Shown: positions 14,570 through 62,732 of the stretch, piece by piece
How the letters are laid out: every line of letters begins with the position of its first letter
Numbering within the stretch: the first letter of the stretch is position 1
Source of the DNA: Parvivirga hydrogeniphila
GTDB lineage: Bacteria; Actinomycetota; Coriobacteriia; Anaerosomatales; Anaerosomataceae
Length of the DNA stretch: 64,000 bases
Direction: 5' to 3'
Assembly (NCBI RefSeq): GCF_023371205.1
Contig: NZ_JAMCCO010000001.1
Coordinates: 492,662-556,661 of the forward strand
Notes under the pieces: model-generated
Told to the model about the DNA's origin: nothing
Database searches by the model: none
Seen by the model: only the letters and a program-made list of their open reading frames with translations
Translations under genes and position numbers: made by a program

Positions 14570-14857
14570 ATGCGAGACTACTACGCGGTGCTGCAGGTCT
14601 CACCCGACGCGGATCCCGAAGTCATCGAGAAAGCGTACCGGGTGCTGGCTCGCAAACGGCATCCAGACGCCCGCGCTGGCGACCGACGAGCGCACGAGAT
14701 GATGGTGGAGCTGAACGAGGCGTACGCGGTCCTGCGCGACCCGGCGAAGCGGGCCGCCTACGATGCACGCCGCGCGCAGGCGCGAGCGATCCCAGAAGCG
14801 CTTCGGGTGTTTTGGGACTCAGGCCTCATCGGACTGTACCGGCGGTACGCGCGGTAG
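14570..14857 (+). CDS. Short J-domain protein
   Basis: 95 residues, starting one base after the PBP stop. Residues 1-65 are a J domain with the HPD tripeptide at 31-33 that stimulates Hsp70 ATPase. Helix II (VIEKAYRVLARKR) and helix III (LNEAYAVLRDPAKRAAYD) are clear. The Gly/Phe, zinc-finger and substrate domains of DnaJ are absent; instead there is a 30-residue basic helical tail. It probably recruits DnaK to one specific client. Coupling to the PBP gene suggests an envelope-related client (inference). Confidence 0.85.
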   Translation: MRDYYAVLQVSPDADPEVIEKAYRVLARKRHPDARAGDRRAHEMMVELNEAYAVLRDPAKRAAYDARRAQARAIPEALRVFWDSGLIGLYRRYAR

Positions 14858-14880: not shown

Positions 14881-15216
14881 TCACGAGGCCTGCTCGAGCT
14901 TGGCCTGGATGGCGCGCAAGATGCCCGGATACGACACGGCGCCTTCGTACATAGGCTCGCCGTCGATGACGGTCACGGGATAGATCCAGCCGTTCTCCTT
15001 GATCGCGGCGATCATCTCGCCGTGCTCGGCCTGGACCTCAGGGCGCGTGGTGTCGAGGTAGACGACGCGCGCGCTGTCTCCAAAGCGCGTGCGGACCTCG
15101 GAGCTGACGATCTCGGTGATCTCCGCCGGAGTCCAGGAAGGCCCTCAACCGCCGGAGAAGCACTCGGTCTCGACGGGGAAGTCGAAGACCTCCACGGTCA
15201 CGATCGCGTTCGCCAT
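14881..15216 (-). CDS. Thioredoxin-like protein with in-frame TGA: candidate selenoprotein
   Basis: 111 codons from an ATG (GAGGAGA 5 bases upstream) to a TGA at 14883-14881, with one internal TGA as codon 24 (15147-15145). Reading it as selenocysteine gives C19-F-S-G-G-U24-G-P-S-W, a redox motif, followed by a thioredoxin-like body: a strand with VVYLDTTRPE, then a helix, then WIYPVTVIDGEPMYEG, reminiscent of the YuzD/DUF1462 family. GC-rich codon use continues unbroken on both sides of the TGA and the frame is exact, which argues against a decayed gene. A hairpin fitting a bacterial SECIS lies just after the TGA. It follows a small ferredoxin gene by 11 bases. Sec machinery is not in the window. 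Confidence 0.78.
15117..15135 (-). promoter_or_regulatory. Putative bacterial SECIS hairpin
   Basis: In the mRNA, 17 bases after the in-frame UGA, CUCC and GGAG pair around a GGC loop; beyond an A/A mismatch, UGG pairs with UCA below (one G-U). The apical loop has G in its first two positions and lies at the distance from UGA expected for bSECIS elements read by SelB. Confidence 0.6.
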
Positions 15217-15227
15217 GTCGTCTCTCC

Positions 15228-15431
15228 TCACGCCGGCGCTACGGCGCCTGTCGGACATACGCGGGCACAGATGCCGCAGCCGGAGCAGCGGCTGGCGTCA
15301 ACAGTATAGCCGTTATACCCAGGGTACGGCCCACCAGGGCGCGGGACGATCGCGCCTTTCGGGCAGACCCTCCGTGCTGGGCACGCGGGCGAGCGGTCAC
15401 ATACGGCAGCATCCACAGAGTACGTTCGCAT
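15228..15431 (-). CDS. Small ferredoxin-like 4Fe-4S protein
   Basis: 67 residues from an ATG with GGGAGGAAACG upstream. The C-terminal half has a standard 4Fe-4S motif, C49-x2-C52-x2-C55-x3-C59-P. The N-terminal half has C11, C17 and C23-P, but Ser14 stands where the second cysteine of a CxxCxxC motif would be, so the first cluster is either missing a ligand or of a different type. It is the first gene of a two-gene operon with the candidate selenoprotein and may pass electrons to its Cys/Sec pair (inference). Confidence 0.85.
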   Translation of the reverse strand: MRTYSVDAAVCDRSPACPARRVCPKGAIVPRPGGPYPGYNGYTVDASRCSGCGICARVCPTGAVAPA

Positions 15432-15465: not shown

Positions 15466-15481
15466 ATACCCCGATGGGTAT
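15466..15481. promoter_or_regulatory. ATACCC-N4-GGGTAT operator, CsoR/CstR-like
   Basis: ATACCC and GGGTAT are perfect 6-base arms around CGAT. G/C tracts flanked by ATA/TAT are typical of CsoR-family operators (copper, persulfide or formaldehyde sensors). It stands 35-50 bases before the ferredoxin start, just upstream of a possible -10 (CATAAT on the minus strand, 15457-15452). No csoR gene is in the window. Confidence 0.5.
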
Positions 15482-16832: not shown

Positions 16833-16909
16833 AGAGCGCATGCAGCGGCGCGAGGGGCTGCTCGTGCGGCGTGAACGCTGAGATCCGGGACGAGCGAGGA
16901 GAGATGCGT

Positions 16910-18973
16910 ATGGCGAAGATCTCTTTGGCCGGGTTCAAAGATCCGGTCCGACGGCCGCGGTACATCGTCTGGACAGGGGTCGTCGTCCTGGCGCTTGCGG
17001 CGTTCATCATCATCGCGTTCGGCGCGACGTCGACCTATTGGTTCTGCGCCAACGTGTGCCACAAGGTCCAGGACGATGCGATCGAAGCCTACAACCGGTC
17101 GTCACACCGCATGGTCTCGTGCATGTCGTGCCATGAGCCGGTCAATGCGGATCCCATCACGTTCACGCTGAAGAAGGCCAAGGCGCTCGGCGAGCTCGTC
17201 CTGACCGTGACGAACAAGTTCGAGCTCCCGCTGAACGCCGAAAGCCACCTGGCGATGGACACCGAGGAGATGGGCTCGCGCCAGTGCACTCAGTGCCATG
17301 ATCTGAAGACTCGCAAGGTGACGCCAAGCGCCGGCATCAAGATCGACCACGATGCGCACGAGGCGAAGGACATCCACTGCACGGCGTGCCACAACCGCGT
17401 CGCGCACAACGAGAGCGGAGACTGGGAGCCTTCGCTCATCGACCCGCAGACGAAGAAGAAGAGCGTGAAGCACCAGAACTTCATGACGATGACTGCGTGC
17501 TTCCGCTGCCACACGCTCACATCTGAGCCGCCTGCTGGCGGCATCAAGGCGCCGGGCACGTGCTCTGCGTGCCACCCCGCCGACTTCGATCTGAAACCGC
17601 CGTCGCACAAAGAGAAGGGCTTCTATCCCGAGGGCCATGCGAAGCTTGCGATGGCGAAGGTCGATCGTTCGACGGGCAAGCCTGTGGCGAATGAGAGCGG
17701 CTCCGAGGCCGAGGAGGCGACGGAGGGCGCGGCAGCGGAGAAAGAAGGCGAAGCCGCCGAAGGCGAGGGCCTGCATCTCGTCGCCGTGGACCAGGTCGAC
17801 TACTGCGCGACTTGCCACGTGAAGGCGACCTTCTGCATGGGCTGCCACGGCATGGAGATGCCGCACCCCGCGGAGTTCAAGGAGAAGACGCACCCGCAAG
17901 TCGCGAAGACCAAGATGGACAAGTGCGACATGTGCCATCAGGTCAAGAAGACGAACTACCGGTTCTGCAACGAGTGCCACCACGGCACGAAGGTCAACTG
18001 GAAGTACGACCCGAAGGTCGCGTGGCAGACCCAGCACGCCAAGGCGGTCAGCACCAACGGCGTGAGCGCCTGCCTCGGCGCGTGCCACGACCAGAAGTTC
18101 TGCGTCGAGTGCCACACCAAGCTCAAGCCGCTGCCCACCTCGCACAAGGATCCGAAGTGGCTGCACGACAAGCTCACCGTCACCAAGTACGGTTCGGCGG
18201 CCGCGCAGCCGTCGGGCAAGCATGCGCTGGCAGCGCTCAAGGCGATCGACAGCTGCGACGTATGCCACGGCCCAGGCGGCACCAACGCGAAGTTCTGCAA
18301 GGGCTGCCACGGCATGGAGATGCCGCACCCGGACACCTTCAAGAAGAACCACGTGTCCGGTCGCAAGACGCCGCAGCTGTGCGCGAATTGCCACACCTTC
18401 AAGGAGGTGTGCTCGGACTGCCACCACGTGGACGCGGTCAACGGCGTGCCGTGGCAGAAGCAGCATCCGAAGGCAGTGGCCGCCAAAGGCACCGCTCCGT
18501 GCTTCGAGAAGTGCCACGAGAACAAGCAGTTCTGCGTGGACTGCCACACCAAGCTGAAGGCGCTTCCGGCGTCGCACAAGGCGTCTGACTGGACGCGCAA
18601 CCTGGCGCTCGGCAAGTCGGCGAAGCACTCTGCGGCCTACAAGGCGCAGCCTGACAGCTGCGAGTACTGCCATGGAACCGGCGGCACGGAGTCTACCTTC
18701 TGTAGGAACTGCCACAAGCTGCCGATGCCGCACCCGGCCAACTTCAAGGACACCCACAAGGCCGACTTCCAGGCGAAGAAGCTCACGAAGCCGGTGTGCA
18801 CGAACTGCCACAGCCAGTACTTCTGCGACAACTGCCACCACAAGGGCGCTGTTGCGAACCAGGCGTGGCGGACGTACCACCCGAACATCGTCAAGAAGAA
18901 CGGCGCAGAGCCGTGCTTCGAGTGCCACAAGCCGACGTACTGCTCGTACTGCCACGTGAGGTTGATCCACTAG
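16910..18973 (+). CDS. Membrane-anchored 24-heme c-type cytochrome
   Basis: 687 residues; ATG at 16910 preferred because GAGGA lies 9 bases ahead (ATG 16904 has none at proper distance). One membrane helix at about 17-41 anchors it, NapC/NirT fashion, with the rest outside. I count 24 heme-binding motifs: 21 CxxCH and three CxxxCH (CANVCH, CLGACH, CFEKCH). After a six-heme front part and an acidic linker (about 255-285), three related modules of about 110-140 residues follow, each opening with FC-x2-CH...MPHP and containing CxxCHH and HPxxx repeats. Such proteins carry electrons across the cell wall to extracellular acceptors or reductases. Confidence 0.93.
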   Translation: MAKISLAGFKDPVRRPRYIVWTGVVVLALAAFIIIAFGATSTYWFCANVCHKVQDDAIEAYNRSSHRMVSCMSCHEPVNADPITFTLKKAKALGELVLTVTNKFELPLNAESHLAMDTEEMGSRQCTQCHDLKTRKVTPSAGIKIDHDAHEAKDIHCTACHNRVAHNESGDWEPSLIDPQTKKKSVKHQNFMTMTACFRCHTLTSEPPAGGIKAPGTCSACHPADFDLKPPSHKEKGFYPEGHAKLAMAKVDRSTGKPVANESGSEAEEATEGAAAEKEGEAAEGEGLHLVAVDQVDYCATCHVKATFCMGCHGMEMPHPAEFKEKTHPQVAKTKMDKCDMCHQVKKTNYRFCNECHHGTKVNWKYDPKVAWQTQHAKAVSTNGVSACLGACHDQKFCVECHTKLKPLPTSHKDPKWLHDKLTVTKYGSAAAQPSGKHALAALKAIDSCDVCHGPGGTNAKFCKGCHGMEMPHPDTFKKNHVSGRKTPQLCANCHTFKEVCSDCHHVDAVNGVPWQKQHPKAVAAKGTAPCFEKCHENKQFCVDCHTKLKALPASHKASDWTRNLALGKSAKHSAAYKAQPDSCEYCHGTGGTESTFCRNCHKLPMPHPANFKDTHKADFQAKKLTKPVCTNCHSQYFCDNCHHKGAVANQAWRTYHPNIVKKNGAEPCFECHKPTYCSYCHVRLIH

Positions 18974-45359: not shown

Positions 45360-46551
<1,192 letters not shown>

Positions 46552-61540: not shown

Positions 61541-62732
<1,192 letters not shown>

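Follow-up and report, generated by a model that had tools for sequence, protein, structure and literature searches.

A predicted selenocysteine codon in a DUF1462/ArsD-related thioredoxin-fold gene of Parvivirga hydrogeniphila and its putative ferredoxin operon

A short minus-strand frame of Parvivirga hydrogeniphila is interrupted by a TGA and continues as coding sequence on the other side. We asked whether this TGA is a stop, an error or a selenocysteine (Sec) codon, and what kind of protein the full frame would make. The frame lies in a 64-kb stretch of DNA (64,000 nucleotides, called the window here).

The in-frame TGA and its conservation

The sequence-only reading had described a 336-base minus-strand frame with a single TGA at codon 24 and a good ribosome site, and we recovered exactly this arrangement. 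The frame 15216-14881 (minus strand) reads MANAIVTVEVFDFPVETECFSGG-TGA-GPSWTPAEI...KLEQAS-TGA. It starts with ATG, and the ribosome site GGAGAG stands 5 nt upstream. Gene finders would cut the product at residue 23. The features of the predicted gene are as follows.

14881..15216, minus strand: predicted selenoprotein gene, 111 aa plus TGA stop; thioredoxin-fold, DUF1462/ArsD-like, with C19-X4-U24 (from the frame, relatives and profile matches)
15145..15147, minus strand: codon 24, TGA predicted to be read as selenocysteine (TGA in 82/82 homologous loci)
15222..15227, minus strand: ribosome-binding site GGAGAG of the selenoprotein gene (from the sequence)
15117..15135, minus strand: candidate bSECIS hairpin with loop GGC and, in the window copy, an A-A mismatch (from synonymous constraint and covariation; its own fold is weak)

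We searched for homologues in a first sample of 61 related genomes, in 199 genomes of the class and in a phylum sample of 396 genomes. The gene was present in 54 of the 61 related genomes, and reading these frame by frame, we found TGA at the same codon in 54/54. The class search gave 63 carriers among the 199 genomes, 61 of them within the 69 genomes of the window's order, a group of anaerobic actinobacteria that is very probably Anaerosomatales (OPB41). The phylum sample added 19 carriers outside the class. Their motifs have diverged (SGGUGPSW, SCGFGUGSYGLS, CRGGGUAPPLS, CSGGGUGTVSW and GAGGUGPVCEP occur in this sample), while TGA stands at the aligned codon in all of them. The homologues thus cover 82 species genomes: 61/69 in the order, 2 elsewhere in the class and 19 elsewhere in the phylum. 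In these, the equivalent codon is TGA in 82/82, Cys in none, and never TAA or TAG. Counting by motif gave the same picture, with TGA in 75/75 distinct matches, Cys in 0, and no sense codon at the Sec position. All 82 homologous loci, that of P. hydrogeniphila included, carry TGA there, which far exceeds what a chance origin of an internal TGA would give. A scan of viral contigs for the family returned a single match with a stop ahead of it, which we rejected as a chance match.

The sequence on either side of the TGA behaves as protein-coding sequence. Comparing the members, we found lower divergence at codon positions 1 and 2 than at position 3 both before and after the TGA. Six residues do not vary across the 54 aligned members: C19, Sec24, G25, P26, W28 and P80. 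Judged from these loci, the family looks obligately Sec in the present sample.

The candidate bSECIS hairpin and the Sec machinery

A hairpin with a GGC loop at bSECIS distance had been claimed at 15135-15117, and it is found there, with the loop at 15127-15125, separated from the TGA by 17 nt. Across the family the loop is GGC or GGA and the spacing 17 nt, but 20 nt in one subfamily. The loop begins with G in all rows but one, and usually with GG. The stem has 8 bp in most members; the window copy has a 4-bp upper stem. The loop, stem and spacing follow the rules of the bSECIS model (PMC13188914). An Rfam search around the gene returned nothing relevant.

Two kinds of constraint point to a functional RNA element within the coding sequence. 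The synonymous sites of TGGTCTCCGGAGGAGATCA are nearly fixed across the order; the fixed codons are Ser TCT (50/50, at +5), Pro CCG (54/54, at +6), Glu GAG (50/50 and 54/54) and Ile ATC (53/53). Synonymous sites near the hairpin, such as +1 Gly, +2 Pro and +10 Thr, are variable. Comparing the hairpin helix between subfamilies, we found 98.1% paired cells versus 90.1% in shuffles, and 24 cells with a double change versus 3.8. The covariation was 0.247, compared with 0.091 for shuffled alignments and at most 0.085 for slid controls. The closing pair alternates among C-G, A-U, U-A and G-C between subfamilies, and another pair is either G-C or U-A.

The window copy itself is weakened. It carries an A-A mismatch (15132/15120), which also occurs in the close relative EMTCatB1 and in one other genus, and the minimum-energy fold of the sequence is a different one (z +1.76). 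By contrast, the stem is a perfect 8 bp in a third species of this genus. The energy of the isolated hairpin is -9.3 kcal/mol for the consensus, -9.3 kcal/mol for the same-genus copy and -4.6 kcal/mol for the window copy; the bSECIS model sets its threshold at a minimum free energy of at most -7.5 kcal/mol (PMC13188914).

We also checked for the machinery of Sec insertion. The sequence-only reading had named selA, selB, selD and tRNA-Sec as the genes to look for, and all four are present in the organism's own genome (1.84 Mb, 99.99% complete). The tRNA-Sec scores 74.9 bits against a cut-off of 47 bits, and ARAGORN assigns it the anticodon TCA. The four genes form a selD-selA-selB-tRNA-Sec cluster at 434-441 kb of contig 1 (G000, locus L120). 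The selD gene also has an in-frame TGA (LSTKSGUAAKWGPGD) with its own bSECIS-like hairpin. In the SelB search, two stretches of the window (about 45396-46280 and 61577-62467) gave near-equal EF-Tu-like GTPase matches, which are probably duplicated tuf genes.

In the phylum sample, selA was present in 20/22 carriers versus 208/374 non-carriers (Fisher p 6e-4, uncorrected for relatedness). In G040, an order member whose assembly is 99% complete, the selenoprotein gene is absent, and so are selA, selB and tRNA-Sec. In six gene-bearing assemblies of the order (G012, G015, G025, G026, G045 and G053), selA, selB and tRNA-Sec were not detected, and selA and tRNA-Sec are likewise missing from G154 and G418, outside the order. 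For the six order assemblies the lack is probably due to assembly gaps; a single gap could account for each case, the sel genes and tRNA-Sec being clustered in the genome of P. hydrogeniphila.

These results bear on two other explanations of the TGA. As a true stop, it would end a 23-residue leader peptide or mark a pseudogene, with no read-through. The weakened hairpin of the window copy and the assemblies with undetected Sec machinery would fit such a stop, yet it would leave unexplained the protein-type constraint on both sides of the codon, the use of TGA and never TAA or TAG in 82 genomes, the synonymous constraint and covariation of the hairpin, and the complete Sec machinery of the organism itself; we regard it as very improbable. 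We give even less credit to a TGA read as Trp or another amino acid, or arising as a sequencing error for TGC/TGT, for which we found no supporting point. The same codon recurs in independent assemblies of 82 species, which excludes a sequencing error; the adjacent upstream gene, a ferredoxin, stops at a normal TGA; and remote relatives carry Cys at the same column. We are therefore highly confident, from comparison of the sequences, that the TGA of codon 24 would specify selenocysteine and that 14881-15216 (minus strand) is a genuine selenoprotein gene.

Relationship to DUF1462 and ArsD

To which fold family would this product belong? The window protein matches DUF1462 (PF07315) with 31.5 bits against a gathering threshold of 25, and all aligned members match the family (54/54). 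Profile searching reaches a solved DUF1462 protein, SA0798 (1XG8), at E 7e-5, and its Cys22 lies opposite Sec24. DUF1462 has a thioredoxin-like fold (PMC3091736). ArsD (PF06953) was found by a plasmid search; hhalign gives it a probability of 95%, and a weak Pfam match occurs in 44/54 members. In the alignment, ArsD C13-X4-C18-G-P stands opposite C19-X4-U24-G-P. A single-sequence structure model was poor (pLDDT 61), and a PDB fold search with it gave insignificant matches only. The profile matches place the product, a small protein, among the thioredoxin-fold relatives of DUF1462 and ArsD.

This outcome bears on what had been supposed about the protein. 'Thioredoxin-like' stands by way of DUF1462 and ArsD and fails in the sense of a classical CxxC thioredoxin. 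The TGA had been placed where a redox Cys would be; that column is indeed redox-active in remote relatives (SA0798 Cys22, ArsD Cys18). Homologues with Cys at position 24, which had been anticipated, were found only as these remote relatives; every close relative in the sample has TGA.

The selenoprotein shares with DUF1462/YuzD the thioredoxin-like fold, and its Sec falls on the Cys column of that family. It differs from DUF1462/YuzD in having Sec for Cys, a CX4U motif, a ferredoxin partner and an operator. ArsD, an arsenic metallochaperone, is also a short thioredoxin-like protein, and its CX4C-GP parallels the CX4U-GP found here. In contrast to ArsD, the selenoprotein has Sec for Cys and matches ArsD more weakly than DUF1462. 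It has no counterpart of ArsD C12, which is invariant in six aligned ArsD sequences, and no arsR, arsA or arsB stands beside the gene, the adjacent genes encoding a ferredoxin and a DnaJ-domain protein. Because C12 and an arsenic-operon context are missing, we rejected filing the protein as ArsD.

Genomes of one subfamily (f36) carry a second DUF1462-like protein (L090/L091, in G108 and G228), whose in-frame TGA is located earlier. Its TGA contexts are VPSG-U-RSC and LPSG-U-SSSG, the former being UxxC (compare the CxxC of the YuzD type). This second protein is possibly another selenoprotein subfamily.

The predicted ferredoxin operon, its putative regulon and a proposed function

We then looked at the surroundings of the gene, where two features that the sequence-only reading had not seen lie upstream.

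15228..15431, minus strand: 67-aa seven-Cys 4Fe-4S ferredoxin-like gene (CDRSPACPARRVCP...CSGCGICARVCP), first gene of the predicted operon (from Pfam Fer4 and the sequence)
15466..15481, no strand assigned: palindromic putative operator of CsoR/CstR type, ATACCC-ATCG-GGGTAT (the only such site in the 64-kb window)

The ferredoxin gene lies directly upstream of the selenoprotein gene; most order members share this adjacency, and the gene is also found near distant subfamilies. Three of the ferredoxin Cys stand in CX5CX5CP, followed by CxxCxxCxxxCP (CxxCxxCxxxCA in many relatives). Seven Cys are unusual, one below two full 4Fe-4S sites. The right half of the palindrome overlaps a -10-like TATATC (15468-15463, minus strand), which takes the form TATAMT across loci. 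Of the order loci, 58/61 have the palindrome upstream, as do most of those in subfamilies f36 and f44; in f88 it has one extra spacer base, and in f38 and f91 it was not found. Its flanking A and T, which lay outside the search pattern, are kept in 67/67, and a downstream control gave 0 operator sites in 74 kb. In loci where no ferredoxin was found, the operator often stands about 140-210 nt ahead of the Sec codon. We found no downstream operon members, the DnaJ-domain ORF being convergent. From this arrangement, the ferredoxin and selenoprotein genes appear usually to form an operon behind a conserved ATACCC-N4-GGGTAT operator.

The convergent ORF (14570-14857) encodes a short protein with a DnaJ domain and little else in it. 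Positions 16871-18973 encode a 700-aa protein that resembles multihaem cytochromes c and contains many CxxCH motifs.

Scanning the 1.84-Mb genome, we found six operator-type sites versus 1 for the reversed pattern. The other sites (TACCC-N4/5-GGGTA) are at G000 C1:922663, 924028, 930965, 223612 and 966320 (loci L145-L147). A CGPC thioredoxin gene and a zinc-ribbon gene follow one of the sites. At one site a cation-efflux gene diverges from the only CsoR-family repressor gene of the genome; the start of the repressor gene is about 55 nt away from one site. Further genes behind sites encode a DsbD_TM/CcdA-like protein, a membrane-anchored rhodanese and an FAD/CCG oxidoreductase.

In the alignment the repressor keeps both Cys and has Ser at the Cu-ligand His position of CsoR; two sensing Cys with loss of the Cu-ligand His are what we take to be the mark of CstR. 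Copper sensors of the CsoR family use similar operators, and the cation-efflux gene adjoins the regulator, which makes a metal a possible inducer. The CsoR of S. coelicolor, a sulfane-sulfur sensor, binds ATACC-n6-GGTAT (PMC7533328), and the window operator fits this pattern of a CstR-type regulon. A two-Cys CsoR-family repressor and rhodanese-type targets are common to this set and to known CstR/sulfane-sulfur CsoR regulons (S. coelicolor CsoR, PMC7533328; B. licheniformis YrkD, PMC9918477); unlike those, the targets here include the ferredoxin-selenoprotein operon, a thioredoxin and a CcdA-like protein. We assume that the six sites mark a small, putative reactive-sulfur regulon.

On these grounds we propose the following scheme. 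SelB and tRNA-Sec would decode UGA codon 24 as selenocysteine, guided by the bSECIS hairpin within the coding sequence. The resulting C19-X4-U24 active site would be a selenium form of the ArsD CX4C pair and of the DUF1462 redox Cys. A CsoR-family repressor at ATACCC-N4-GGGTAT would control the operon; its thiols would react, most likely with reactive sulfur species (or a metal would be sensed), and the operon would be derepressed. The ferredoxin may then hand low-potential electrons to the C19/U24 pair, which would cycle between selenol/thiol and selenenylsulfide and reduce persulfides, polysulfides or protein disulfides. Three other products of the putative regulon may act alongside: the thioredoxin, the rhodanese and the CcdA-like protein. 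The sequences themselves show the conserved Sec codon, the constrained and covarying hairpin, the Sec machinery, the fold family, the operon, the operator and the regulon, whereas we infer that Sec is inserted in vivo and that the repressor binds its sites, and likewise the inducer, the electron transfer and the substrate. A. tenue, a cultured member of the same order, respires elemental sulfur and thiosulfate, whereas P. hydrogeniphila is an Fe(III) reducer (PMC9686372); the system therefore need not belong to sulfur respiration as such.

The main competitor of this scheme is an ArsD-like metal or metalloid chaperone, in which C19/U24 would bind As(III), Hg(II) or Cu(I) and pass it on with no redox cycle. 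The alignment of CX4U with the ArsD pair, the hhalign probability and the weak Pfam matches argue for it, as does the setting, metal resistance being often under CsoR-type operators and a cation-efflux gene adjoining the regulator. Still, the loss of C12, the stronger DUF1462 match, neighbours other than arsA/arsB, and thiol/sulfur redox proteins behind the like operators weigh against it, and we think a mainly chaperone role unlikely. The sulfur-redox role suggested by the gene context is that of a selenol reductase linked to the ferredoxin and serving a response to reactive sulfur, and we hold it in even balance.

How new is the family? A 2026 catalogue of 119 prokaryotic selenoprotein families (PMC13188914) has no DUF1462, ArsD or CX4U thioredoxin-like family, and no NCBIfam model matches the window protein at E up to 10. 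Among the openly available journal papers searched, the one that names DUF1462 does not treat selenium in it. The family is thus undescribed in the catalogues searched, although priority is not certain. Known thioredoxin-like selenoproteins, mostly of unknown function, are SaoT, the HUIPC and VPGUxxT types and Sec.1/Sec.2 (PMC13188914). Like the window protein, these are small thioredoxin-fold selenoproteins, but their motifs are UxxC, VPGU, CxU or UxC, and not CX4U. The complete reading, which we advance tentatively as slightly short of an even chance, is of an undescribed selenoprotein family, obligately Sec in the order and scattered elsewhere in the phylum, with a selenium ArsD/DUF1462 fold, a dedicated ferredoxin and a CsoR/CstR-type regulon, acting as a ferredoxin-driven selenol reductase of sulfane sulfur.

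What would be new here is a CX4U selenoprotein family together with its ferredoxin partner, operator and regulon. The core UCUC-N-GGN-N'-GAGA is almost fixed across distant subfamilies and would offer an unusually clean natural bSECIS series for studying SelB requirements, in which the weakened window hairpin would serve as a natural mutant. For DUF1462, a family of unknown function, a redox-active selenol beside a ferredoxin in a regulon of sulfur/thiol type would give a functional lead.
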